Source of the DNA: Desulfobacterium sp.
Lineage (GTDB): Bacteria; Desulfobacterota; Desulfobacteria; Desulfobacterales; Desulfobacteraceae
NCBI GenBank assembly: GCA_030145245.1
Contig: JAQYWC010000008.1
Span: 1-64,000, forward strand
DNA: 64,000 nt
Direction: 5' to 3'
Shown here: piece after piece, positions 4,089 to 58,087 of the stretch
Layout: each line of letters opens with the position of its first letter
How positions within the stretch are numbered: position 1 is the first letter of the stretch
The notes under the pieces: model-generated
Database searches by the model: none
What the model saw: only the letters and a program-made list of their open reading frames with translations
What the model was told of the DNA's origin: nothing
Program-made: the position numbers and the translations under genes

Positions 4089-7641
<3,553 letters not shown>

Positions 7642-43753: not shown

Positions 43754-44572
43754 CTATTTCCAGCTGATTTCAGGCGGGTTTCGCGGGGGGATCCGTTTGT
43801 AGGTGTAAACCGGGTGACCCACCATCATGGTGCCAAAGCTTGCGTGGTTGTTGGGAAGGCCCAGGGCCTCCTGGAGAGGGGGCCAGAAGGTTGCCGCCGC
43901 ATTGAAAAAACCGCACCAGCAGCCCCCCAGCCCCAGGGAGGGCAGGGTGAGTTCCAGCCAGGTCATGGCGATGGTGCAGGCAGCATGGGCGGTTAGGTCG
44001 CGCTTGTCCCCGTGGGCGATGATAAGATGGGGGGCGTTCCGGGTGACGGTGTCCATGCCCGCCTCCCAGCCGGAGACCACAAGGTCCAGATGGAGGGGGG
44101 CGGCCCGGTCGGGCTGCTCCTTGAGCATCCAGCGCATCCAGTCGATCACATGGGTGGTGAGCTCTTTGACCGCTTTTGTGTCATGGATCACCTGCCAATG
44201 AACCGGCTGGCGGTTGTGGCCCGACGGGGCGTGGGCGGCAATGGTGATGGCCTTTTCCAGGAGCTCTTTTCCCACGGGGTTTTTCCTGTAGTTCCGGATG
44301 GATCGCCGCTGGCGAAGGAAAGTCTCCGCCTGTTCCGGGGAAAACAATGTGGTTTCGTCCAGGGGGATGCATTGGGCCGGGGATAGATTCTTGTGGGAAA
44401 AGGCCTGGGTGGGACAGACGGCAACACAGTGGCCGCAGTTGATGCAAAATTGTTCCGCGCCCTTCACAGGCCGGGGAAATCCCTTTGACGTATCGATGAT
44501 TTTCATGGGGCATTCTGCGGCGCAGATGCCGTCCTTGTTGCATAACTCCTGGTCGATGCGAAATAGATCCAT
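43754..44572 (-). CDS. Ferredoxin-domain nitroreductase family flavoprotein
   Basis: The protein of about 272 residues joins a 2[4Fe-4S] ferredoxin-like domain at the N-terminus (CNKDGICAAECPMKII and CINCGHCVAVCP) to a nitroreductase-fold FMN domain (RRSIRNYRKNPV, HAPSGHNRQPVHWQVI, GLGGCWCGFF). Such fusions occur mainly in anaerobes and probably move electrons from ferredoxin to an organic acceptor; the substrate is unknown. ATG 44572 with GGAGAG upstream is taken over the longer frame, which begins in a non-homologous stretch. It is on the same strand as the acyl-CoA operon upstream but 118 bases away, so it may be separately transcribed. Confidence 0.88.
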   Translation of the reverse strand: MDLFRIDQELCNKDGICAAECPMKIIDTSKGFPRPVKGAEQFCINCGHCVAVCPTQAFSHKNLSPAQCIPLDETTLFSPEQAETFLRQRRSIRNYRKNPVGKELLEKAITIAAHAPSGHNRQPVHWQVIHDTKAVKELTTHVIDWMRWMLKEQPDRAAPLHLDLVVSGWEAGMDTVTRNAPHLIIAHGDKRDLTAHAACTIAMTWLELTLPSLGLGGCWCGFFNAAATFWPPLQEALGLPNNHASFGTMMVGHPVYTYKRIPPRNPPEISWK

Positions 44573-44621
44573 GTGATACTCTCCTAATCCGGACAAGCCG
44601 GAAGCAAAAAAAATCAGAGCT

Positions 44622-44645
44622 ATAGATGTTTGCACTCGAATTGAT
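44622..44645. repeat. Dispersed 24-bp intergenic repeat, copy 2
   Basis: The counterpart of the stretch at 8917-8940, with two mismatches, located in the 118-bp gap between the long acyl-CoA dehydrogenase gene and the nitroreductase gene. Confidence 0.6.
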
Positions 44646-44690
44646 ACCAAATCACCTATTCGCTCAGCTTATAAAATTTGCGGTCCTAGG

Positions 44691-46496
44691 CTAATCTTTA
44701 AAGCTGTCCGTTGTCATCTCCATGGTGACGGGGTCGTTGTCCATGAGCCGCTGGCAAAGCCCCAGGGTCTTGGGCAGCTCGTACCGGAAAAAGTACCTGA
44801 AGGTGAAGATCTTTCCCTGGTAGAATCGCTCATCCTTTTGTTTGCATCCCTTTTCAAGGGCCTCATGGGCCGCAACCGCCTGGATGAGCCACTGCCACGC
44901 AATGGCCACGATGCCGGTCATCTCCAGGAACAGGGTGGCGTCGGCCAGGAAAACTTCGGGCCCCTTTTCCCCGGCAAGGGCAAACAGATGGCCGGTCACT
45001 TTCCGGAGCTGCTCAAGGGCCTGGGCCAGCAAGTCAGCATAGGGCGCGATGTCAGGGAACTTTTTACCCGCGGCAATGCTCCGGGTCACCTCTTCCATGA
45101 AGAGCATGGCGGCCCTGCCGTTGTTCATCACCATCTTACGGCCCAGAAGATCCATGCCCTGCATGCCGGTTGTGCCCTCGTGGATGGGGTGGATCCTTGC
45201 GTCCCTGAAGTACTGCTCCACCGGAAAATCCTCGCAATAGCCGTAACCGCCGAAGCACTGGAGGGCCTGGCTGGTTGAGAGGATGCCCATTTCGCTGGGA
45301 TAGGTCTTGGCAATGGGGGTGAGGAGATCGAGAAGTAAGGTGTTTCGCTCCTTCTCCTCCCCGGAGGTGACCTTTGCCCGGTCCGCATAGAGGCAGCACT
45401 GGAGGCAGAGGCTTAAGGAGCCCTCCACCACGGCCCGCTGGAACAGAAGCATCCGTTTCACGTCCGTGTGCTCAATGATGGGGATCTGGGGGGTTGAGGG
45501 ATCCTTCTGGGCGAGGGGTCTTCCCTGGGGCCGCTCCATGGCATAGTCAAGCGCCGCATAATAGGCGGCCGTGGCAATGGCGGTGGCGCCCAGGCCCACG
45601 CCCAGCCGTGCCTCGTTCATCATCTGGAACATGCAGCTAAGTCCCCGGTTCGCCTCTCCCACAAGGAAACCGCGGCAGTCGTTGTTTTCGCCCATGGAAA
45701 GCTCGGTGATGGGCGCTCCCCGGTAGCCGAGCTTGTGGTAGACCCCTGCCACGGTGACATCGTTGGAGACAAGGGTGTCCTTGGTGTCCGGCCGGAGCTT
45801 TGGCACCACAAAGAGCGAGATGCCCCTGGCACCCTGGGGGGCGCCCTCTATTTTTGCCAGCATCAGGTGGACCACATTGTCCACCCCGTCGTGGTCACCG
45901 GCAGAGATAAAGGTCTTCTGGCCTTTGATCCTGTAGTAGCCCTGGTCGGTGGGAAAGGCCGTGGTGGCGATGTCGGACAGGGAGCTTCCGGCCTGGGGTT
46001 CGGTCAGGGCCATGGTGCCCTGCCACTGGCCAGCCAGCATGGGGGGCAGATAGGTGTCCACGAGTTCCCGGCTGCCAAAGGTGAGGATCAGTTCGGCAGC
46101 CCCGGCTGTCAGTTCCGGAAACACGGAGGCTGAGTAGTTGGCCGCGGCAAAAATGAACCGGCACACATTGGCGATGATGATGGGCAGGCCCTCTCCGTCA
46201 TGCTCTTCCGGGAACCCCGATCCGATCCATCCGCCTTCACCGTACTCCTTCATGAGCTCTCGTACGTCCCCATGGACCTTCACCCGTCCTGCAACAAGTT
46301 CCGGGGGATGCTTGTCCATCTCGTCCAGGATGGGGTAGAGCCGGTCTTTGGCCAGCTGGGTGGCCGCCTTGACCACCATGTTGAACATCTTTTTGGTGTG
46401 CTGGCCGTACCGGTCGGTACGGGTCAGGGATTCAACATCAAAGATCTCGTAAAGAAGAAAGTTCAGGTTTTTTTCACTGACAAATTTACCGCTCAT
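44691..46496 (-). CDS. Acyl-CoA dehydrogenase, long form (about 600 residues)
   Basis: An FAD enzyme that oxidises acyl-CoA to 2-enoyl-CoA and passes electrons to ETF. At 601 residues it belongs to the long group with an extra C-terminal helical domain. Visible motifs are ALTEPQAGSSLSDI and KTFISAGDHD in the FAD/substrate region. SQALQCFGGYGYCEDFPVEQYFRDARI and HPIHEGTTGMQ follow, where the glutamate of HEGT is the usual catalytic base. GGAAAGGA precedes the ATG. It is on the same strand as the SDR, hydroxyacyl-CoA dehydrogenase and kinase genes and probably receives the same regulation. Confidence 0.92.
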   Translation of the reverse strand: MSGKFVSEKNLNFLLYEIFDVESLTRTDRYGQHTKKMFNMVVKAATQLAKDRLYPILDEMDKHPPELVAGRVKVHGDVRELMKEYGEGGWIGSGFPEEHDGEGLPIIIANVCRFIFAAANYSASVFPELTAGAAELILTFGSRELVDTYLPPMLAGQWQGTMALTEPQAGSSLSDIATTAFPTDQGYYRIKGQKTFISAGDHDGVDNVVHLMLAKIEGAPQGARGISLFVVPKLRPDTKDTLVSNDVTVAGVYHKLGYRGAPITELSMGENNDCRGFLVGEANRGLSCMFQMMNEARLGVGLGATAIATAAYYAALDYAMERPQGRPLAQKDPSTPQIPIIEHTDVKRMLLFQRAVVEGSLSLCLQCCLYADRAKVTSGEEKERNTLLLDLLTPIAKTYPSEMGILSTSQALQCFGGYGYCEDFPVEQYFRDARIHPIHEGTTGMQGMDLLGRKMVMNNGRAAMLFMEEVTRSIAAGKKFPDIAPYADLLAQALEQLRKVTGHLFALAGEKGPEVFLADATLFLEMTGIVAIAWQWLIQAVAAHEALEKGCKQKDERFYQGKIFTFRYFFRYELPKTLGLCQRLMDNDPVTMEMTTDSFKD

Positions 46497-46547
46497 CTGT
46501 TTTCCTTTCCTTTGAAGCAGGTATCCATTCGAGTGGGAATATCCATT

Positions 46548-47306
46548 TTAAGCTAACATGCCGCCGTCGCAGGTGATGGTGGAACCCGTGGTAAACGATG
46601 CGGCCCGGGACGCAAGATAGAGCACGGCCCCGGCCATCTCTTCGGGCTGGGCCATCCGTCCCAGGGGAATCTGGGGGATCACCATGCTTTTGATCTCCTC
46701 GTTGCTGGTGATGGCTGATGCAAACTTTGTGTCGGTTAACCCGGGCAGCAGGGCATTGACCCGGATGTTGTGCGGTGCCAGCTCCTTGGCATAGGCCCGG
46801 GTCATGGTGATCAGTCCCGCCTTGGTGATGGAGTAGATGCCCTGGAACAGGGCGGGCACCACCCCGTTGATGGAGGAGACATTGATGATGCTGCCGGCCT
46901 TGCTCTCCTTCATCAAAGGGACGGCCTGCTGGATCATGAAAAACGGACCCTTGAGGTTTACTTCATGGGTTTTGTCCCAGGCCCATTCCTCGGCTGTTGC
47001 CATCTCCCCGAAATAGGGGTTGGCCGCCGCGTTGTTCACCAGGATGTCCAGCCGTCCGTGGCGTTGTTTCACCCCTTGGATCAATTCAGTTATCTGGTCG
47101 ATCTTTCCCAGGTGGCAGGCCCTGGATTCCGCTTTGCCGCCCGTTGAAACGATCTTCTTTTCCACCGCCTCCAGGGCCTCCGGTTTTCGGCTCACAAGGA
47201 TGCACAGGGCCCCTTTTTCCGCCAGAAGAAGTGCAATGGCCTCGCCAATGCCCCGGCTTGCCCCGGTGATGATCGCAACCTTTCCGTCAAGGTCGAATGG
47301 GTCCAT
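46548..47306 (-). CDS. Short-chain dehydrogenase/reductase
   Basis: A 252-residue classical SDR, NAD(P)-dependent. It shows the cofactor loop TGASRGIGEA, NNAAANP, the catalytic serine in NVSSINGV, and YSITKAG with Tyr and Lys. The C-terminus has DGGMLA. In an acyl-CoA operon it probably oxidises or reduces a hydroxyacyl or ketoacyl intermediate. It is close to SDRs found with ACAD10/11-type kinases in other bacteria, an association known from gene context. Start with AAGGAGAAG upstream; 12 bases separate it from the preceding gene. Confidence 0.9.
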   Translation of the reverse strand: MDPFDLDGKVAIITGASRGIGEAIALLLAEKGALCILVSRKPEALEAVEKKIVSTGGKAESRACHLGKIDQITELIQGVKQRHGRLDILVNNAAANPYFGEMATAEEWAWDKTHEVNLKGPFFMIQQAVPLMKESKAGSIINVSSINGVVPALFQGIYSITKAGLITMTRAYAKELAPHNIRVNALLPGLTDTKFASAITSNEEIKSMVIPQIPLGRMAQPEEMAGAVLYLASRAASFTTGSTITCDGGMLA

Positions 47307-47318
47307 GGAATCTTCTCC

Positions 47319-48233
47319 TTATTTGTTTTTTTTAGGGGCCAGGAAGTCGGGTTTGCCAAAGGCGGGATCCGGGTAGGTGTAAAACCCTTGTCCGGTCTTT
47401 ACGCCCAGGTTGCCCTTGTCCACATAGGCTTTGAGAAACGCGGCATTGGCCTTTGCCTGGGGATCGTTGCGCTGTTGGGCCCAGTAGTCGGTCACCTTCC
47501 AGGAGGTGTCGATACCAATGCCGTCCATGATGCCGAAGGGTCCGACCAGGGTGTGCATCACCCCCATCCAGGAGCGGTCGATCTCTTCAATGGGGGCCAC
47601 ATCCTTTGCCGCCAGGGTGAGGGCCGAGCCGAGGAAGGACATGAGCATGTTGTTGAATACGTATCCGTTGTTCTCCTTGGTGAGAACGATGGGAATCTGG
47701 CCGAGATCCTCGGCAAATTGCCGGACAAGATCCACGGTCTCTTTTGAGGTGCCCGGATGGGGCATCACATCCACGATCTTTGAGATGGCCACATCGTGGA
47801 AGTGGAGGGCGCAGAGCTTCTCCGGCCTGCCGCTCTCTTTGGCAAACATGGAGGGCAGGAGGGAGGAGGTGTTGGTGGTGAAGATGGTGTCGGGTTTGCA
47901 GCAGCGGTTGATGTCGCTGAACAGCCTGCCCTTGAGTTTCGGGTCCTCGGGCACGCTCTCGATGACGAGATCCGCGTCCCGGGCTGCGATGTTGATATCC
48001 ATGGTGGTGGATATCCGTGATATGGCGGTGTCTGCCGCCTCCTGGGTGCAGAGGTTAAACCCGGTCATCCGGTGTGCATTTTTTTTGATCCGCGCCACGC
48101 CCTTTGAAAGGATCTCGTCTGAAATGTCATAGATGACGACATCATAGTCGTTCAGGGCGCAGAGGAGCGCGGTCTGCTGTCCCATGGTGCCGGCGCCGGC
48201 AATGAGGATGGTCTTTATCTGTGTCCGTTGCAT
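47319..48233 (-). CDS. 3-hydroxyacyl-CoA dehydrogenase (HAD/3-hydroxybutyryl-CoA type)
   Basis: A 304-residue NAD-dependent dehydrogenase of beta-oxidation, converting 3-hydroxyacyl-CoA to 3-ketoacyl-CoA. The N-terminal Rossmann domain has ILIAGAGTMGQQTALLCAL and LVIESVPEDPKLK. The catalytic histidine is in LHFHDVAIS, and the C-terminal domain has NGYVFNNMLMS, GVMHTLVGPFGIMDGIG and KTGQGFYTYPDP. AAAGGAGAAG precedes the ATG. Neighbours on both sides are acyl-CoA enzymes. Confidence 0.92.
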   Translation of the reverse strand: MQRTQIKTILIAGAGTMGQQTALLCALNDYDVVIYDISDEILSKGVARIKKNAHRMTGFNLCTQEAADTAISRISTTMDINIAARDADLVIESVPEDPKLKGRLFSDINRCCKPDTIFTTNTSSLLPSMFAKESGRPEKLCALHFHDVAISKIVDVMPHPGTSKETVDLVRQFAEDLGQIPIVLTKENNGYVFNNMLMSFLGSALTLAAKDVAPIEEIDRSWMGVMHTLVGPFGIMDGIGIDTSWKVTDYWAQQRNDPQAKANAAFLKAYVDKGNLGVKTGQGFYTYPDPAFGKPDFLAPKKNK

Positions 48234-48252
48234 CTCTTCTCCTTTCCTATCC

Positions 48253-49320
48253 TTACAGGGTTGACTGATCCATCAACCGCAGGGCAGACCGTTCCAGGAT
48301 CTGAACCCCTGCGATGAGCATGGCGAACCGCTTGTCCTTGGTGATGCCGTTGAAATAGCGGTGGTAGATCTGCTGGGCAATCACGGCGAGTCGGAAGATG
48401 CCAAAGCAGAGGTAAAAGTCGAAATTGTCCATGTTGCGGCCGGTTTTTTCGGCATAGAGATTGATGATCTCCCGGCGGGTGAGGGCGCCTGGCATGGTGG
48501 TGGGCAGGGTGCGCATGAGGTGGCACTCTTCAGGATCGTCCCCCTCCACCCAGTAGGCAAGGGAGTTGCCAAGATCCATCAACGGATCGGCATAGGTGGC
48601 CATCTCCCAGTCCAGCACCCCGATGATGTTCACAGGGTTGGCGGCATCCAGCACCACGTTGTCGAACTTGTAGTCGTTGTGAACCAGGGTGGGGGTGGAT
48701 GTGTCCGGCTGGATCTTCTCCTTAAGCCAGGCGATCACCCGCTCAAAGTCCGGGGCGTCCGGGGTGATGGCGTTTCGGTACCGGCCGGCCCAGCCCTCCA
48801 CCTGGCGTTGGACATATCCTTTGGGTTTGCCCAGGAATTCCAGGCCTGCGGCTTTGACGTCGATGGCGTGGAGATCTGCCTGGAGCCCCACAAGCTTTTT
48901 GCACAGGGTTGCGGCCTGGTCCGGGGTGAAGGAGAGCGCCTTGGGCAGATCCCTGCGAAGGATGATGCCGGGGATCTTCTCCATCACGTAGAAGGGACAC
49001 CCCATGACCGAAGGGTCTTGTGTGTAGGCCAGGGGCCGGGGGCAATAGGGAAACACGGGATAGAGGGCGTTGAGGATCTTGTACTCCCGGCCCATGTCGT
49101 GGGCTGATTTGATCTTTGCACCCACCGGGGGCCGGCGAAGCACCATCTCCCTCTGTCCAAGGTTCACCTGGTAGGTCAGGTTTGAAAATCCGCTTGGGAA
49201 CTGTTGGATGCGGATATCTCCTTCAAGATCCGGTACGCTCTCCTTTAAAAAGGCCTCGACCCGTTTGGGGTCGAGCTCCTCCCCTTCTCTCACCTCAACT
49301 GCTGTGTCCATCACTGACAT
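48253..49320 (-). CDS. APH-fold phosphotransferase (ACAD10/11 or LvaA-like)
   Basis: A 355-residue kinase of the aminoglycoside-phosphotransferase fold. The catalytic loop HNDYKFDN and the metal-binding GVLDWEMATYADPLMDLG are intact, so it should be active. In mammals the same domain in ACAD10/ACAD11, and in Pseudomonas LvaA, phosphorylates 4-hydroxyacyl-CoA so that the hydroxyl can be removed. Its place among acyl-CoA dehydrogenases, including an ACAD10/11-like one, supports that role here rather than antibiotic resistance. AAGGAGAC precedes the ATG. The specific substrate is inferred from family and context. Confidence 0.85.
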   Translation of the reverse strand: MSVMDTAVEVREGEELDPKRVEAFLKESVPDLEGDIRIQQFPSGFSNLTYQVNLGQREMVLRRPPVGAKIKSAHDMGREYKILNALYPVFPYCPRPLAYTQDPSVMGCPFYVMEKIPGIILRRDLPKALSFTPDQAATLCKKLVGLQADLHAIDVKAAGLEFLGKPKGYVQRQVEGWAGRYRNAITPDAPDFERVIAWLKEKIQPDTSTPTLVHNDYKFDNVVLDAANPVNIIGVLDWEMATYADPLMDLGNSLAYWVEGDDPEECHLMRTLPTTMPGALTRREIINLYAEKTGRNMDNFDFYLCFGIFRLAVIAQQIYHRYFNGITKDKRFAMLIAGVQILERSALRLMDQSTL

Positions 49321-49412
49321 GGGATGTCTCCTTAATATTAGCTTCTGAGCTCTGATTGTCGCGTTATTCTGGCAAGAGAATCAGAAAGCGTTTTGGGTTA
49401 GGCTTGTCCGGG

Positions 49413-50123
49413 TCAGGGCGTGGTTCTCCTCCCAATGGCTTCGGTGGTGAGGCAGAACCGCTCGATCACTTCAAGAACATAGTCTGCATAGTAATCAACG
49501 GATATGTTTCGCTTGGTGTATTTCCACCGCTTCAGGTACCAGTCCTGCTGCATGGATTTGATGATGCTGGCCGTGAGCCGGTGGTCCCGCTGGAGGAAGA
49601 GCCCCTGGGCTTCCCCTTGTTCAAGGATCGTTACCAGGATCTCTTCGGTGTACTCCTCTAAACTTATCACCGACTCCAGGGCGGCAGGGCTCAGGTTCCG
49701 TGCCTCCATAAAGGTGAAGTAAAACCAGGGCCGGGCCGCTTCGCTTAAAAACAGGTGGGCCTTGATCAGGTGCCTCAGGCGCGTGACCGGATCATCGGAT
49801 TCCTGGAAAAAGGTTTCCAGCACCCGCTGGATCATGGTCCGGCCCTGCTTCTGGATGATGGCCAGAAGCTCCTCCTTGCTTTTGAAATAGCCGTAGAGGG
49901 CGCCCATGCTCATGGCGGTTTTGCTGCTCAGGTCCCGCATGCTCATGGCCTGGAACCCCTTTTCATAGGTGATCTGGAACACGGCGTCAAAGATCTTCTT
50001 AAAGTTCTTAACGGCGGTTTTCTCTTTCTTGATGCGGATGGTATCCTGGTTCTCCAGGAACACCTCTTTGCAGATGGCCTCCCCGGAGTTGTTCATGGTC
50101 TTCTGGAACTCACGGTAATTCAT
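49413..50123 (-). CDS. TetR-family regulator of the acyl-CoA operon
   Basis: A 236-residue TetR repressor. After an N-terminal extension of about 35 residues, the helix-turn-helix reads FDAVFQITYEKGFQAMSMRDLSSKTAMSMGALYGYFKSKEEL in pieces that fit the family. The C-terminal part should bind a ligand, plausibly an acyl-CoA. It starts 2 bases after the stop of the acyl-CoA dehydrogenase gene and has only a weak ribosome site, so it is translationally coupled and made with the operon. The likely operators are the palindromes at 52141-52154 and 56284-56298. Confidence 0.88.
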   Translation of the reverse strand: MNYREFQKTMNNSGEAICKEVFLENQDTIRIKKEKTAVKNFKKIFDAVFQITYEKGFQAMSMRDLSSKTAMSMGALYGYFKSKEELLAIIQKQGRTMIQRVLETFFQESDDPVTRLRHLIKAHLFLSEAARPWFYFTFMEARNLSPAALESVISLEEYTEEILVTILEQGEAQGLFLQRDHRLTASIIKSMQQDWYLKRWKYTKRNISVDYYADYVLEVIERFCLTTEAIGRRTTP

Positions 50124-50125
50124 GC

Positions 50126-51334
50126 TTATCTGATGGTTCTCCCTTCATAGGAGCGCAGGATCCGTTTGGCCAGGCTCATCTTGTGAACCTCGTCGGCGCC
50201 GTCGTAGATCCGTGCCGCCCGTTCGTGGCGATAGAAAAATGCCAGTATGGTGTCGTCGGTCATGCCAAGTCCACCATGGACCTGGAGCGCCCTGTCTACC
50301 ACCCGGTTCATGGTGTTGGCAACGACAAATTTAATGGTGGAGATGGCCTCCCGGGCCGCCGCCGCCCCGTTCTGATCGATCTGCCAGGCCGCGTTCAGGG
50401 TCATGAGCCTCGCTGCGTCGATCTCGGCCCTGGATTCGGCGATCCAGTTCCTCACGGTCTGCTGGGTGCCCAGGGTTTTGCCGTTGGGGGCGATCACCCG
50501 GTGGTTGGCCCGTTGGCACATGAGATCAAAGGAGCGGCTGCAGATGCCCAGCCACCGCATGCAGTGGTGGATCCGGCCCGGTCCCAGGCGCTCCTGGGCA
50601 ATGACAAACCCGTGGCCCTCGGGGCCCAGCAGGTTCTCCCGGGGCACCCGGCAGCTCTGGAGCAGGATCTCGGCATGGCTGAAGTAGTCGCTTCCCTCAT
50701 GGCCCATCACAGGGATGTTTCTGACGATGTTGAAGCCAGGCGTGTTGGTGGGTACCATGATCATGCTGGCCTGGAGATAGGGGGGGGCCTCGGGGTTGGT
50801 CACGGCCATGACAATGGAGAAATCAGACCCGTCCGCTGAGGAGGAATACCATTTATGGCCGTTGATCACATAGTCGTCTCCCTCCTTTTCCGCAGTGGTC
50901 TCAAGCATCACCGGGTTGGAGCCGGGCATATCCACCTCGGTCATGGAGAAGCAGGATCGGATATCGCCACGGACCAGGGGATTCAGGTACCGCTCTTTCT
51001 GGGCGTCACTGCCGTAAAGGTGGAGGATCTCCACGTTTCCGGCATCCGGGGCCTGGCACCAGAACACGTAATGGCCAAGGGGAGAACGGCCCAACGCTTC
51101 CGACACAAGCCCATGCTCCAGAAGGGAGAGGCCCATTCCCCCACACTCCACCGGGAAGTTGGGGGCCCACAGCTCCATTTTTTTCACCATGGCCTGCTTC
51201 TCCCTTAACACGGGAAGCATTGTCTTGAAATCCTTTACAAGAAACTCCGGCTCCAAAGGGATCAGCTCCTTGTCCACAAACTCATTGATCATCTGGACAA
51301 TGGTCTGAATCTTCTCCGATACGGTAAAATCCAT
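50126..51334 (-). CDS. Acyl-CoA dehydrogenase (ACAD10/11-like)
   Basis: A 402-residue acyl-CoA dehydrogenase. Motifs are PNFPVECGGMGLSLLEH, FSMTEVDMPGSNPVML, GHKWYSSSADGSDF, VHGGLGMTDDTILAFFYR and ERAARIYDGADEVHK. The last motif carries aspartate (YDGAD) where ordinary enzymes have the catalytic glutamate (YEGT). This and the EVHK ending are features I associate with ACAD10/ACAD11-type enzymes. With the APH kinase three genes on, it may convert a phosphorylated 4-hydroxyacyl-CoA to an enoyl-CoA. GGAGGAGA precedes the ATG. Electrons should go to ETF, encoded at 56340-58087. Confidence 0.9.
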   Translation of the reverse strand: MDFTVSEKIQTIVQMINEFVDKELIPLEPEFLVKDFKTMLPVLREKQAMVKKMELWAPNFPVECGGMGLSLLEHGLVSEALGRSPLGHYVFWCQAPDAGNVEILHLYGSDAQKERYLNPLVRGDIRSCFSMTEVDMPGSNPVMLETTAEKEGDDYVINGHKWYSSSADGSDFSIVMAVTNPEAPPYLQASMIMVPTNTPGFNIVRNIPVMGHEGSDYFSHAEILLQSCRVPRENLLGPEGHGFVIAQERLGPGRIHHCMRWLGICSRSFDLMCQRANHRVIAPNGKTLGTQQTVRNWIAESRAEIDAARLMTLNAAWQIDQNGAAAAREAISTIKFVVANTMNRVVDRALQVHGGLGMTDDTILAFFYRHERAARIYDGADEVHKMSLAKRILRSYEGRTIR

Positions 51335-51356
51335 GGTCTCCTCCGTTGATTAACGT

Positions 51357-52064
51357 TTATCTGTATGTGATCAGGTTTTGGTTGCCTTCTATTTCAAGGT
51401 GGGCGATGGAGTTGAATCCGGCCATGACCAGCCGGTCCTTTTTCACCTGGAACCTGCTGATGGAGGCGTTGCAGATCTGCCAGCCCGTCTCCATGGTGGT
51501 CTCAAGGGAGAGGTTGAGCACCATCTGAACCAGCACCCCGATCACCCCCCCTGATGTGAAAACCGCAGTGTTGCCGGCGGATCCGTTGTCCCGGATCACC
51601 CGGGCAAGGCCCTGTTGGATGCGGCCCTTGTACGCTTCAAAGGTCTCGGCCCCGGGGATGTCGTGGCGGCCGGAAATCCAGCGCTGGAAGATGATGCTGA
51701 ACAGCTCCACAAAGGTGGCGTCATCCTTGAATATGTTTTTGCTCCGCTCTGCCATGTCAGGGTTCTCCCGTACCATGGCCGGCAGTTGGCTCTTGATGAT
51801 GGCCACAAAATCGTATTCGTTGAATTCGCTCAGGATGGTGGGCCCGGCCATGGGATCACCGTGGTTGGCAGCGGCCATGGCGTGTTTTGCCGTGTCTGTC
51901 TGGCGCTGCATGCTGCCGGAGTAAACCGCGTCAAATGCAATGCCGGCCCTGGCAAAGTACCGGCCCAGGGCTTTGGCCTGGCGGCAGCCGTTTTCAGAGA
52001 GGGCATCGTACTCACTGGCACCAAAACAGGCCTGTCCGTGGCGTATGAACCATAGGGTTCCCAT
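51357..52064 (-). CDS. Histidine phosphatase family protein (phosphoglycerate-mutase-like)
   Basis: A 235-residue member of the histidine phosphatase superfamily, with the phospho-histidine motif FIRHGQACFG at residues 5-14, the arginine in GSMQRQTDTAKHAMAA, and the second histidine region VFTSGGVIGVLVQ. In the last motif the usual SH before G reads SG, so the C-terminal catalytic histidine may be altered. It is the first gene of the acyl-CoA operon. It may hydrolyse a phosphorylated intermediate or phosphate ester made by the APH kinase; that is inference. AAAGGTG precedes the ATG. Confidence 0.87.
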   Translation of the reverse strand: MGTLWFIRHGQACFGASEYDALSENGCRQAKALGRYFARAGIAFDAVYSGSMQRQTDTAKHAMAAANHGDPMAGPTILSEFNEYDFVAIIKSQLPAMVRENPDMAERSKNIFKDDATFVELFSIIFQRWISGRHDIPGAETFEAYKGRIQQGLARVIRDNGSAGNTAVFTSGGVIGVLVQMVLNLSLETTMETGWQICNASISRFQVKKDRLVMAGFNSIAHLEIEGNQNLITYR

Positions 52065-52140: not shown

Positions 52141-52154
52141 AACGAACGTTCGTT
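52141..52154. promoter_or_regulatory. Palindromic TetR-type operator, copy 1
   Basis: AACGAACGTTCGTT is a perfect 14-bp palindrome between the divergent acyl-CoA operon and the sensor kinase gene. Bases on both sides (AAAAATAG before, TTTT-TTGATC after) recur at the second site upstream of etfB. It is probably bound by the TetR protein of this operon. Confidence 0.75.
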
Positions 52155-56283: not shown

Positions 56284-56298
56284 AACGAACGTTCGCTT
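56284..56298. promoter_or_regulatory. Palindromic TetR-type operator, copy 2, upstream of etfBA
   Basis: AACGAACGTTCGCT contains the perfect 10-bp core CGAACGTTCG (56286-56295) and matches copy 1 at 13 of 14 bases. The flanks AAAATAG and TTTT-TTGATC also match. It ends 5 bp before the -35 of the etfB promoter. Confidence 0.75.
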
Positions 56299-56303
56299 TT
56301 TTC

Positions 56304-56333
56304 TTGATCGGGGTTCCATTGTGTGTCTATAAC
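56304..56333 (+). promoter_or_regulatory. Promoter of etfBA, possibly giving a leaderless mRNA
   Basis: TTGATC (56304-56309) and TATAAC (56328-56333) are spaced by 18 bp. Transcription would begin near 56340, which is the A of the etfB start codon. No ribosome-binding site precedes that ATG. Confidence 0.5.
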
Positions 56334-56339
56334 CCCTTT

Positions 56340-57077
56340 ATGAAGATTCTTGTCTGCATAAAACAGGTGAGTGAAACCGTGGGGGGCATCACCCAGGTGA
56401 TGAACCGGTTTGACGAGTATGCCCTTGAGGAGGCGATCCGCATCAAAGAGCGATTCATGGCAGCAGGCCTTGACGCGGTGGTGCATGTGATTACCCTTGG
56501 GCCGGAACAGGCCGCAGCAGTGGTAAAAAGGGCCTTTGGCATGGGGGCGGACAAGGGGTGGCACCTTGTCACGGACCCGAATCAAAATGGGTCGTCGGCG
56601 GTCACGGCAGGGCTGATGGCCGGGGCTGTCAAGGGGGGTGCCTACGATCTTGTGGTGACGGGCATCATGTCCCAGGACAGGATGGAGGGCCAGACCGGCC
56701 CCATTCTTGCCGAATTGATGGGCCTTGCCTGTGCCACCGGAGTTGTTGCCACCTCCCTTGTTCCGGGATCCTCCTGCCTTACGGTGGAGCGGGAGCTGGA
56801 AAAGGGGGCGCGGGAAAGCCTTTCCATAACACTTCCGGCCCTTCTTACTGTCCAGGCGGGCATCAACACCCCCCGTTACCCAAGCCTATCCAACGTTCTC
56901 AAGGCATCGAAAAAAACCATCCAAACCCTTGTTGTGCCAGGGGGCACTGTTGACACCCAGACCACGGTTCGCCTGGAGGCGCCCTTGAAGAGCCGGGCCG
57001 GGAGAGTGCTTGGGGGAACCCTGGATGATAAGGCCCTTGCCCTGTTCACCCTGTTAAGGGAAAGGGGGATCCTATGA
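56340..57077 (+). CDS. etfB: Electron transfer flavoprotein beta subunit
   Basis: EtfB with EtfA accepts electrons from acyl-CoA dehydrogenases. The product of about 245 residues shows MKILVCIKQVSETVG, NRFDEYALEEAIRIKE, ALGPEQ-like TLGPEQAAAVVKRAFGMGAD and DLVVTGIMSQDRMEGQTGPILAELMG, followed by LPALLTVQAGINTPRYPSL. The ATG at 56340 fits the family N-terminus; the frame is open 12 codons further back, across the promoter. Its stop overlaps the etfA start by 4 bases (ATGA). It probably serves the dehydrogenases at 44691 and 50126 through a shared TetR operator. Confidence 0.93.
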   Translation: MKILVCIKQVSETVGGITQVMNRFDEYALEEAIRIKERFMAAGLDAVVHVITLGPEQAAAVVKRAFGMGADKGWHLVTDPNQNGSSAVTAGLMAGAVKGGAYDLVVTGIMSQDRMEGQTGPILAELMGLACATGVVATSLVPGSSCLTVERELEKGARESLSITLPALLTVQAGINTPRYPSLSNVLKASKKTIQTLVVPGGTVDTQTTVRLEAPLKSRAGRVLGGTLDDKALALFTLLRERGIL

Positions 57078-58087
57078 GGCAAATTGTTGTGGTTGTGGAG
57101 CATGACGCCAGTGGCATTCTACCCGTCACCCATGAGTTCATGGCCTGCGCAAAAATCCTTGGAGATCAGACCGGGGCGTCCATTTTGGCCGTGATCCCGG
57201 GAAAAGGGGAGCCTGCCATGGCCGGGGAGATCTCCTCCCTGGGGGTCGAGACCATTGATCTTGCCATCACCGGCATGGACGGCTACAACAGTGAGGCCTG
57301 GAAGGGAGCGCTTTTTCAGCTCTTTACCACCCTTGCGCCCTGGTACATCATTGTGGGCCATACGGCCACGGGAAGGGATTATGCGCCGGGCCTTGGGGTA
57401 AGGTTAGGCGGCTGTTCCATTGCCGGGGTTAACAATATTGTGTTTGATAAAACCGGCCCCCTCTTTTCAAGGCAGGTTTTGAACGGAACCCAAAACGCCC
57501 TGGTGAGGCCGGAAACAGAGCCCTGTATCGTCATGGTCCAGCCCGGCGCCTTCAGGGCACACGGGACATCTTCCCCCTTGCCCGGCAGGGTTTCCCCCTT
57601 GCCCGGCAGGGTTTCCCCCTTGCCCGGCAGGGTCATTCATATGGAGGTTCTGTTTTCGGGTGGCAAGATTCAACCCCTTGGCATCAAAACCGTCGCCACC
57701 CGGGGAGAGGACCTTGACCGGGCAGCCGTGATCGTGGCCGCAGGAAGGGGTATAGGGGAGAGGGATAATCTCCATCTCCTGGAGCGGTTTGCCGCCCTTT
57801 TTCCCAATTCGGTGGTGGGCGCTTCCCGTCCGTTGGTTGACGACGGATGGATGGAGTACCGGTTCCAGGTGGGCATCACCGGCGCCCGGGTTTCCCCAAA
57901 GCTCTACATTGCCTGCGGTATCTCGGGGTCGTCCCAGCACCTTGCCGGCATCACCGGGTCAGAATTGATCGTGAGCGTCAACTCCGATCCCAATGCCGCC
58001 ATCTTCAACCATTCGGACATCTGCATCGTTGGGGATCTCTTCGGGTTTATCAGCGCCTTTGAGCGCCTCCTCGATTTTCAAGATTAG
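57074..58087 (+). CDS. etfA: Electron transfer flavoprotein alpha subunit with a repeat insertion
   Basis: A 337-residue EtfA. The N-terminal domain starts RQIVVVVEHDASG and has HTATGRDYAPGLGVRLGG. The C-terminal FAD domain has VVAAGRGIGERDNL, VGASRPLVDDGWM, QVGITGARVSPKLYIACGIS and ISGSSQHLAGI, ending SDICIVGDLFGFI. Between them, at about residues 167-187, the peptide SPLPGRV occurs three times in a row, encoded by three perfect 21-bp units. The FAD-binding residues look intact, so the protein should work. It is the second gene of etfBA. Confidence 0.93.
   Translation: MRQIVVVVEHDASGILPVTHEFMACAKILGDQTGASILAVIPGKGEPAMAGEISSLGVETIDLAITGMDGYNSEAWKGALFQLFTTLAPWYIIVGHTATGRDYAPGLGVRLGGCSIAGVNNIVFDKTGPLFSRQVLNGTQNALVRPETEPCIVMVQPGAFRAHGTSSPLPGRVSPLPGRVSPLPGRVIHMEVLFSGGKIQPLGIKTVATRGEDLDRAAVIVAAGRGIGERDNLHLLERFAALFPNSVVGASRPLVDDGWMEYRFQVGITGARVSPKLYIACGISGSSQHLAGITGSELIVSVNSDPNAAIFNHSDICIVGDLFGFISAFERLLDFQD
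57571..57633 (+). repeat. Three perfect 21-bp tandem units inside etfA
   Basis: The 21-bp unit beginning TTCCCCCTTGCCC occurs at 57571-57591, 57592-57612 and 57613-57633 without a mismatch. The unit length keeps the frame, so copy number may vary between strains and change only the linker length. Confidence 0.95.

Follow-up and report, generated by a model that had tools for sequence, protein, structure and literature searches.

The window considered here, by which we mean the whole of the stretch analysed, is the first 64,000 nucleotides of contig JAQYWC010000008.1 from a Desulfobacterium sp. (assembly GCA_030145245.1), and its subject of interest is a run of seven open reading frames, all on the minus strand at 44691-52064 and separated by gaps of 2 to 92 bp. 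In order of transcription these encode a histidine phosphatase-like protein of 235 aa (51357-52064; PF00300, His_Phos_1), an acyl-CoA dehydrogenase (ACAD) of 402 aa and of ACAD10/11/LvaC type, here called ACAD402 (50126-51334; assigned with Pfam, best PDB match ACAD11 2wbi at 1e-86), a TetR-family regulator that is probably a local repressor (49413-50123; PF00440 and PF17932), an APH-fold (aminoglycoside phosphotransferase) kinase of the LvaA/ACAD11-kinase type (48253-49320; PF01636), a 3-hydroxyacyl-CoA dehydrogenase, 3HCDH (47319-48233; NF006143, 361.8 bits for a cut-off of 312), a short-chain dehydrogenase/reductase (SDR) that may be a counterpart of LvaD (46548-47306; NF005446/PRK07035, 405.4 bits for a cut-off of 373), and ACAD601, a conventional long ACAD of 601 aa with a Glu base (44691-46496; PF12806, Acyl-CoA_dh_C). 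The original prediction had placed this set on one strand, and the Pfam and NCBIfam families agree with it; the cluster is real and well conserved, and its core had been correctly read. What distinguishes it lies outside that interval. A perfect 14-bp palindrome, AACGAACGTTCGTT (52141-52154), is found 76 bp ahead of the start codon of the phosphatase gene, and a second copy with one mismatch (56284-56297) 4.1 kb from it, so that one precedes the operon and the other precedes two plus-strand genes for an electron transfer flavoprotein (ETF): EtfB, the beta subunit (56304-57077; PF01012), whose likely start, ATG 56340, is 42 bp beyond the palindrome, and EtfA, the alpha subunit (57074-58087; PF00766 and PF01012; best PDB match CarE 6fah, 2.4e-36). 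The reading that we consider likely is of a TetR-controlled catabolic regulon which would bring 4-hydroxyacyl-CoA thioesters into beta-oxidation. While the core module is already known, its form here, of the LvaA/LvaC type with a linked ETF and a palindrome common to the two units, appears to be new.

The kinase is intact, as had been claimed, with H214, D216, N221 and D237 kept, and invariant in all 11 rows aligned; D216 aligns with the position mutated in chain 8v3u of ACAD11. Its best PDB matches are 9o56 (2.5e-94), the ACAD11 kinase domain (3.9e-49) and 3dxp (2.9e-44), and antibiotic phosphotransferases came at 0.0019 and weaker in the same search. A tree of 29 kinases places it among those of Desulfobacterota, next to the one from Desulfoluna (100/96), in a poorly resolved part that also holds Pseudomonas, Azospirillum and Marinobacter kinases. 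No grouping with unrelated APH families was seen, the antibiotic ones being compared through PDB scores only and forming no part of the tree. A search with it gave no other match in its own 6.4-Mb genome (E <= 1e-3); among 86 genomes of the family 33 have it (E <= 1e-30), as do 66 of the 395 drawn from the phylum (E <= 1e-40). Of 38 stretches chosen by kinase, the window included, 37 have a member of the TetR family and 36 one of the ACAD402 family. As gene order, kinase and ACAD recur across family and phylum, the cluster is not there by chance. That the kinase is of the LvaA and ACAD10/11 kind is supported by these comparisons, the likeness to LvaA coming by way of ACAD11 and of published statements.

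How good is the case for the dehydrogenase? In the ACAD11 structure (PMC12440821), D753 is the catalytic base, R626, H634 and R637 stabilise the phosphate, and R631 is an orienting residue conserved across ACADs. ACAD402 has an equivalent of each of the five, and together they occur in all 27 ACAD402-type rows and in none of four conventional ACADs; the latter, ACAD601 and three others, are without D753, R626, H634 and R637, with R631 kept in two of the four. The Asp that had been noted at the base position, in the YDGAD motif, is borne out, since this residue of YDGADEVH shares a column with the Asp altered in 8v3v, a column in which ACAD601 has Glu. In the ACAD tree ACAD402 falls inside the 27-row set, which is split from the Glu-type ACADs at 96/92, on a tree with four outgroup rows only for which the tool warned of long outgroup branches meeting. 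The assignment of the 402-residue enzyme to the LvaC and ACAD10/11 kind is thus supported, for LvaC again via ACAD11 and published statements, and with the kinase it makes a 4-hydroxyacyl-CoA kinase/phosphate-elimination module a well-supported prediction.

The palindrome is shared by the operon and the ETF genes. With up to two mismatches 0.05 matches are expected in the window and two are found, and nowhere else in the genome does a site come within one mismatch; a further four are at two mismatches, making six sites in all at that level. Among relatives, a palindrome with at most two mismatches is present in 23 of 34 upstream regions, these being from 32 loci chosen by first gene, two of which gave two regions each. 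Four of the loci lacking it upstream have a copy at another place, which in three is immediately ahead of EtfB. It is a probable TetR operator, and co-regulation of operon and EtfBA, with the TetR protein paired to the palindrome, is what we infer from this arrangement; what is on offer may be a small regulon with two candidate promoters. A sigma-70 promoter scan, uninformative here, gave 0 sites.

In the pathway proposed, the kinase would spend ATP to phosphorylate the 4-hydroxyl of a CoA-activated 4-hydroxy acid. The Asp of ACAD402 would then take the alpha proton, with FAD being reduced and phosphate eliminated via the Arg/His pocket, to give a 2-enoyl-CoA, which would enter beta-oxidation through 3HCDH, ACAD601 and others, with a thiolase presumed to be encoded elsewhere. 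The co-regulated EtfBA would take up electrons, and the SDR probably interconverts 4-oxo- and 4-hydroxyacyl-CoA, as LvaD does in the lva pathway (PMC6692424). The Ser-type phosphatase, so called for a substitution described below, would most likely hydrolyse dead-end 4-phospho compounds or restrain the kinase. All these reactions, the binding of FAD and the role of the phosphatase are deduced from sequence.

Several points weigh against this reading. No CoA ligase, hydratase or thiolase was found among the eight operon genes (the probable eighth is dealt with below) scanned with Pfam. The ACAD11 kinase domain is in a separate clade, on a 97/100 branch from the window kinase, so that the two do not share a clade in the 29-kinase tree. 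ACAD402 is about 40% identical to human ACAD11 and is in a 100/100 clade of its own made up of Desulfobacterota enzymes, with clade-specific residues: V134 in six of seven, and P137, N140 and Y377 in seven of seven (Y377 is also in 3 of 20 rows outside the clade). The comparison supports a substrate class shared with ACAD11, yet a distinct branch. The palindrome is not enriched genome-wide, there being 24 sites for the reversed control as against six at up to two mismatches, and at that level it is not in 11 of the 34 upstream regions, Desulfoluna's included; its placement, not its frequency, is what counts. The position of the kinase in a different part of the tree from that of ACAD11 would also suit action by kinase and dehydrogenase, with the same chemistry, on another hydroxyacyl-CoA, for instance one that is ring-derived or has a 3- or 5-hydroxyl. 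However, the three residues of the ACAD11 pocket for the 4-phosphate are identical in ACAD402, and we consider such a substrate quite improbable.

To what do the electrons of the flavin go? In the work published on ACAD10 and ACAD11 the chemistry needs no electron acceptor, FAD being proposed to return the electrons (PMC11342911; PMC12440821), and for ACAD10 a transient 2,4-dienoyl-CoA is proposed as the most likely path (PMC11342911); the catalytic mechanisms of both are stated there to be unclear (PMC12440821). If no acceptor is needed, then the ETF of the window either works for ordinary beta-oxidation or is the sign of an oxidative version of the reaction. When the window's own EtfB and EtfA were used as queries against 41 loci of Desulfobacterota and similar lineages, the window being one, EtfBA proved to adjoin the cluster in 34; none of ten ACAD-bearing loci from lineages taken as aerobic has it there. 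Loci with less than 3.5 kb upstream of ACAD402 are excluded from this count, five presumed duplicates have been dropped from the 41 and others may remain, and the labels for anaerobe and aerobe lineages rest on record titles or kinship, some titles giving only Proteobacteria or bacterium. The seven negative loci are L031, L033, L037, L038, L079, L112 and L115 of our set. In 27 of the 34 there is no other ACAD within the stretch covered, which sits awkwardly with the ordinary case, where the ETF serves conventional dehydrogenases such as ACAD601 and the pathway is plainly lva-like with one ETF per pathway. So does the palindrome, which at up to one mismatch marks only the operon and EtfBA. Nevertheless ACAD601, with its Glu base, is in the operon of the window, and the genome has four matches to ETF alpha (ETF_alpha), the EtfA of the window being one of them, so that a separate ETF for each pathway may be the norm. 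We put the ordinary case at about an even chance.

The same figures for ETF linkage, the palindrome that the ETF has in common with the operon, the proposal for ACAD10 of a transient dienoyl-CoA that is then reduced back (PMC11342911) and the residues specific to the ACAD402 clade would all suit a variant in which electrons from ACAD402 pass to the dedicated ETF and the product is 2,4-dienoyl-CoA, not 2-enoyl-CoA. Were it true, part of the ATP cost would be regained as reducing power, with the 4-hydroxyacyl-CoA leaving as 2,4-dienoyl-CoA. But the phosphate-pocket residues are kept in ACAD402, the window locus has a conventional ACAD, the several ETFs of the genome may well be pathway-bound as a rule, and there are the seven of 41 loci with no ETF nearby. 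Nor does the SDR lend support as a dienoyl-CoA reductase, its best PDB match being DHRS4 (1.7e-49); no search aimed at such a reductase was made. This variant seems rather unlikely, and an ETF serving ACAD601-like steps, because ordinary, is more likely than one serving ACAD402. Either way, a lineage with the same active-site residues and a linked ETF would allow a direct test of the fate of the flavin electrons. In five relatives there are also families (at L063:10003-13602) that resemble FeS proteins and a GlcD-like flavoprotein; we presume that they might be partners of the ETF.

Is the phosphatase, as first gene, a sign of a variant pathway, as the original prediction had it? That argument fails, and the case for a variant now has to be made from the ETF and the palindrome instead. 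In other bacteria, eight plasmid records (Azospirillum, Ideonella, Streptomyces, Pseudoalteromonas, Deinococcus, a Rhodobacteraceae, Sulfitobacter and Caballeronia) show a Ser-type phosphatase next to a kinase of this sort, many of the bacteria with this arrangement being aerobes, and it is rejected as a distinguishing feature. Nor is a phosphatase beside the kinase new, being already in print for Pseudomonas citronellolis, where a histidine phosphatase is reported beside the lvaA homologue, no lvaB was found and the function was left open; the region in question is 11.1 kb and includes levulinate-upregulated genes (PMC6692424). In the Cytobacillus and Rhodococcus loci no such phosphatase adjoins the kinase, and the 100-aa protein that follows the Rhodococcus kinase, considered as LvaB-like, is without a Pfam match.

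The phosphatase is still of interest for its active site. The window protein keeps the RHGQ motif, R54 and E83. Among 90 relatives gathered with a model of the same family 87 are full-length, and in all 87 R8, H9, R54 and E83 are invariant, and the second catalytic His is replaced by Ser, Ser171 in the window protein, a position at which 9mmh, CobC and phosphoserine phosphatase have His. The nucleophilic His, second Arg and acidic residue of an active histidine phosphatase are present, then, and the second catalytic His is not. The AlphaFold model is confident, with a pLDDT of 92.5, and by fold it resembles phosphoserine phosphatase 1, CobC and further histidine phosphatases of the PDB. Three other histidine phosphatases of the same genome have HAG, HNG and Ser respectively, the last (L228, C30:129142-129738) with Ser likewise in place of the second catalytic His, which weakens any notion that the replacement is unique to the family of the window protein.

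In two Pseudomonas clusters the place between kinase and ACAD is occupied by a small protein, DUF6285, and this would seem to be the LvaB family; the genome of the window has 0 matches to DUF6285 (PF19802). Of the 395 phylum genomes, 41 have the phosphatase family, 39 of them with the kinase as well, and 31 of the 45 phosphatase genes are within 6 kb of it; DUF6285 is in 20 (two below the curated cut-off), 19 being kinase-positive. The 66 kinase-positive genomes comprise 35 with the phosphatase only, 15 with DUF6285 only, four with both and 12 with neither (Fisher p 9e-5, relatedness uncorrected). Where the kinase is at least 47% identical to that of the window, the phosphatase is present in 34 of 46 genomes, and in the remainder DUF6285 is present in 16 of 20. 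With the Ser in 87 of 87, this alternation raises the thought of a non-catalytic replacement for LvaB that regulates the kinase, much as the degenerate HAD domain of ACAD10 does, a domain with next to no phosphatase activity that holds the kinase back (PMC11342911); the failure to find LvaB in the phosphatase-bearing P. citronellolis region (PMC6692424) is in keeping with it. Yet Arg8, His9, Arg54 and Glu83 never vary, which is what an active enzyme would show, a canonical histidine phosphatase sits in the DUF6285-type clusters of the two Pseudomonas, L228 has Ser too, and the identity of DUF6285 with LvaB is itself an inference. Furthermore, the swap is not strictly by kinase lineage: outside the phylum the rule breaks down in Caballeronia and Sulfitobacter, whose kinases group with that of ACAD11 (97/100) and have a Ser-type phosphatase adjoining. 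A non-catalytic partner is, in our view, doubtful. The combined notion, that in sulfate reducers and their relatives an oxidative phosphate elimination is drained by ETF while the phosphatase guards the phosphorylated pool, is unlikely. The Ser-type phosphatase, and the way it alternates in part with DUF6285, may nonetheless offer a route to the function of partner proteins of this sort.

Some observations on Pseudomonas can be set beside these. The 45 loci fetched (L116-L169) have kinases 52-56% identical to that of the window. All 45 kinases are accompanied by an SDR with 45% or more identity to that of the window, and 32 of them by a Ser-type phosphatase as well; within the stretches covered none of the loci has an ACAD of ACAD402 type. 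The two clusters with DUF6285 are those of P. capeferrum (L185:7082-10489) and P. alkylphenolica (L187:5017-8443), which have kinase, DUF6285, a canonical histidine phosphatase with SHD, and an ACAD that keeps the same five residues.

Taking the likely reading of a 4-hydroxyacyl-CoA regulon, how does the locus compare with known systems? Mammalian ACAD10 and ACAD11 (PMC12440821, PMC11342911) share with it paired kinase and ACAD activities, and ACAD11, the one compared by sequence, also the kinase catalytic residues, the Asp base and the equivalents of R626, R631, H634 and R637 described above; unlike them, the window has two separate polypeptides, together with a linked ETF and a TetR. In contrast to the HAD domain of ACAD10, it has a Ser-type histidine phosphatase. 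The lva operon of Pseudomonas putida also has kinase, LvaC-type ACAD, SDR and regulator in one locus, that regulator, LvaR, being listed as sigma54-dependent (PMC6692424) where the window has a TetR. The genome of the window is without a DUF6285 match and its operon without a CoA ligase (LvaE), whereas 3HCDH, ACAD601 and ETF are additions. Closer in one respect is the levulinate region of P. citronellolis LA18T, with LvaA and LvaC homologues, an SDR, a histidine phosphatase and no LvaB; no ETF is among the ORFs listed for that 11.1-kb region (PMC6692424). Clusters in Azospirillum (L080), Ideonella (L081), Streptomyces (L082) and Pseudoalteromonas (L083) have kinases 45-53% identical to that of the window, the Ser-type phosphatase, and an ACAD with the same residues as ACAD402; however, that ACAD is 37-41% identical and of another clade, and neither ETF nor palindrome was found in the stretches covered. 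Desulfoluna limicola ASN36 (L122/L195) has phosphatase, ACAD (84%), TetR, kinase and ETF laid out as in the window, but the palindrome only with three mismatches.

A literature search found no paper joining 4-hydroxy acid phosphorylation, the kinase, acyl-CoA dehydrogenase and sulfate-reducing bacteria, and what was found on levulinate and sulfate-reducing bacteria mentions no such cluster in titles and the beginnings of abstracts. The cluster suggests that 4-hydroxy acid catabolism may occur in sulfate reducers. The host very probably reduces sulfate or sulfite, because dsrA scores 608 bits in its genome and is adjoined by a weaker match to the same model (82 bits, below cut-off), presumably dsrB. 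This much of the earlier label of probable strict anaerobe stands; strictness is not accepted as shown, since genes for subunits I and III of cytochrome c oxidase, with a weak match for subunit II, and for SCO1 are present too (L236, C76). As candidate 4-hydroxybutyryl-CoA dehydratase, for a parallel route, there is an HpaB-family protein (L234), matched by NCBIfam HpaB models only and below cut-off.

Of the remaining neighbours, a ferredoxin-nitroreductase fusion on the minus strand (43754-44650; PF00881 and Fer4) follows ACAD601 and is probably the eighth and last gene of the operon; it keeps the same place in the gene order of two genomes of the same genus (L021, L022). ACAD601 itself has 6ijc as best PDB match (5.6e-105). 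At the far end of the window, the first 4 kb are AT-rich (GC 0.37-0.39), with GC rising to 0.51 by 8 kb, and ORFs at 4089-7641 presumably are dnaN and gyrB, which their first residues resemble.

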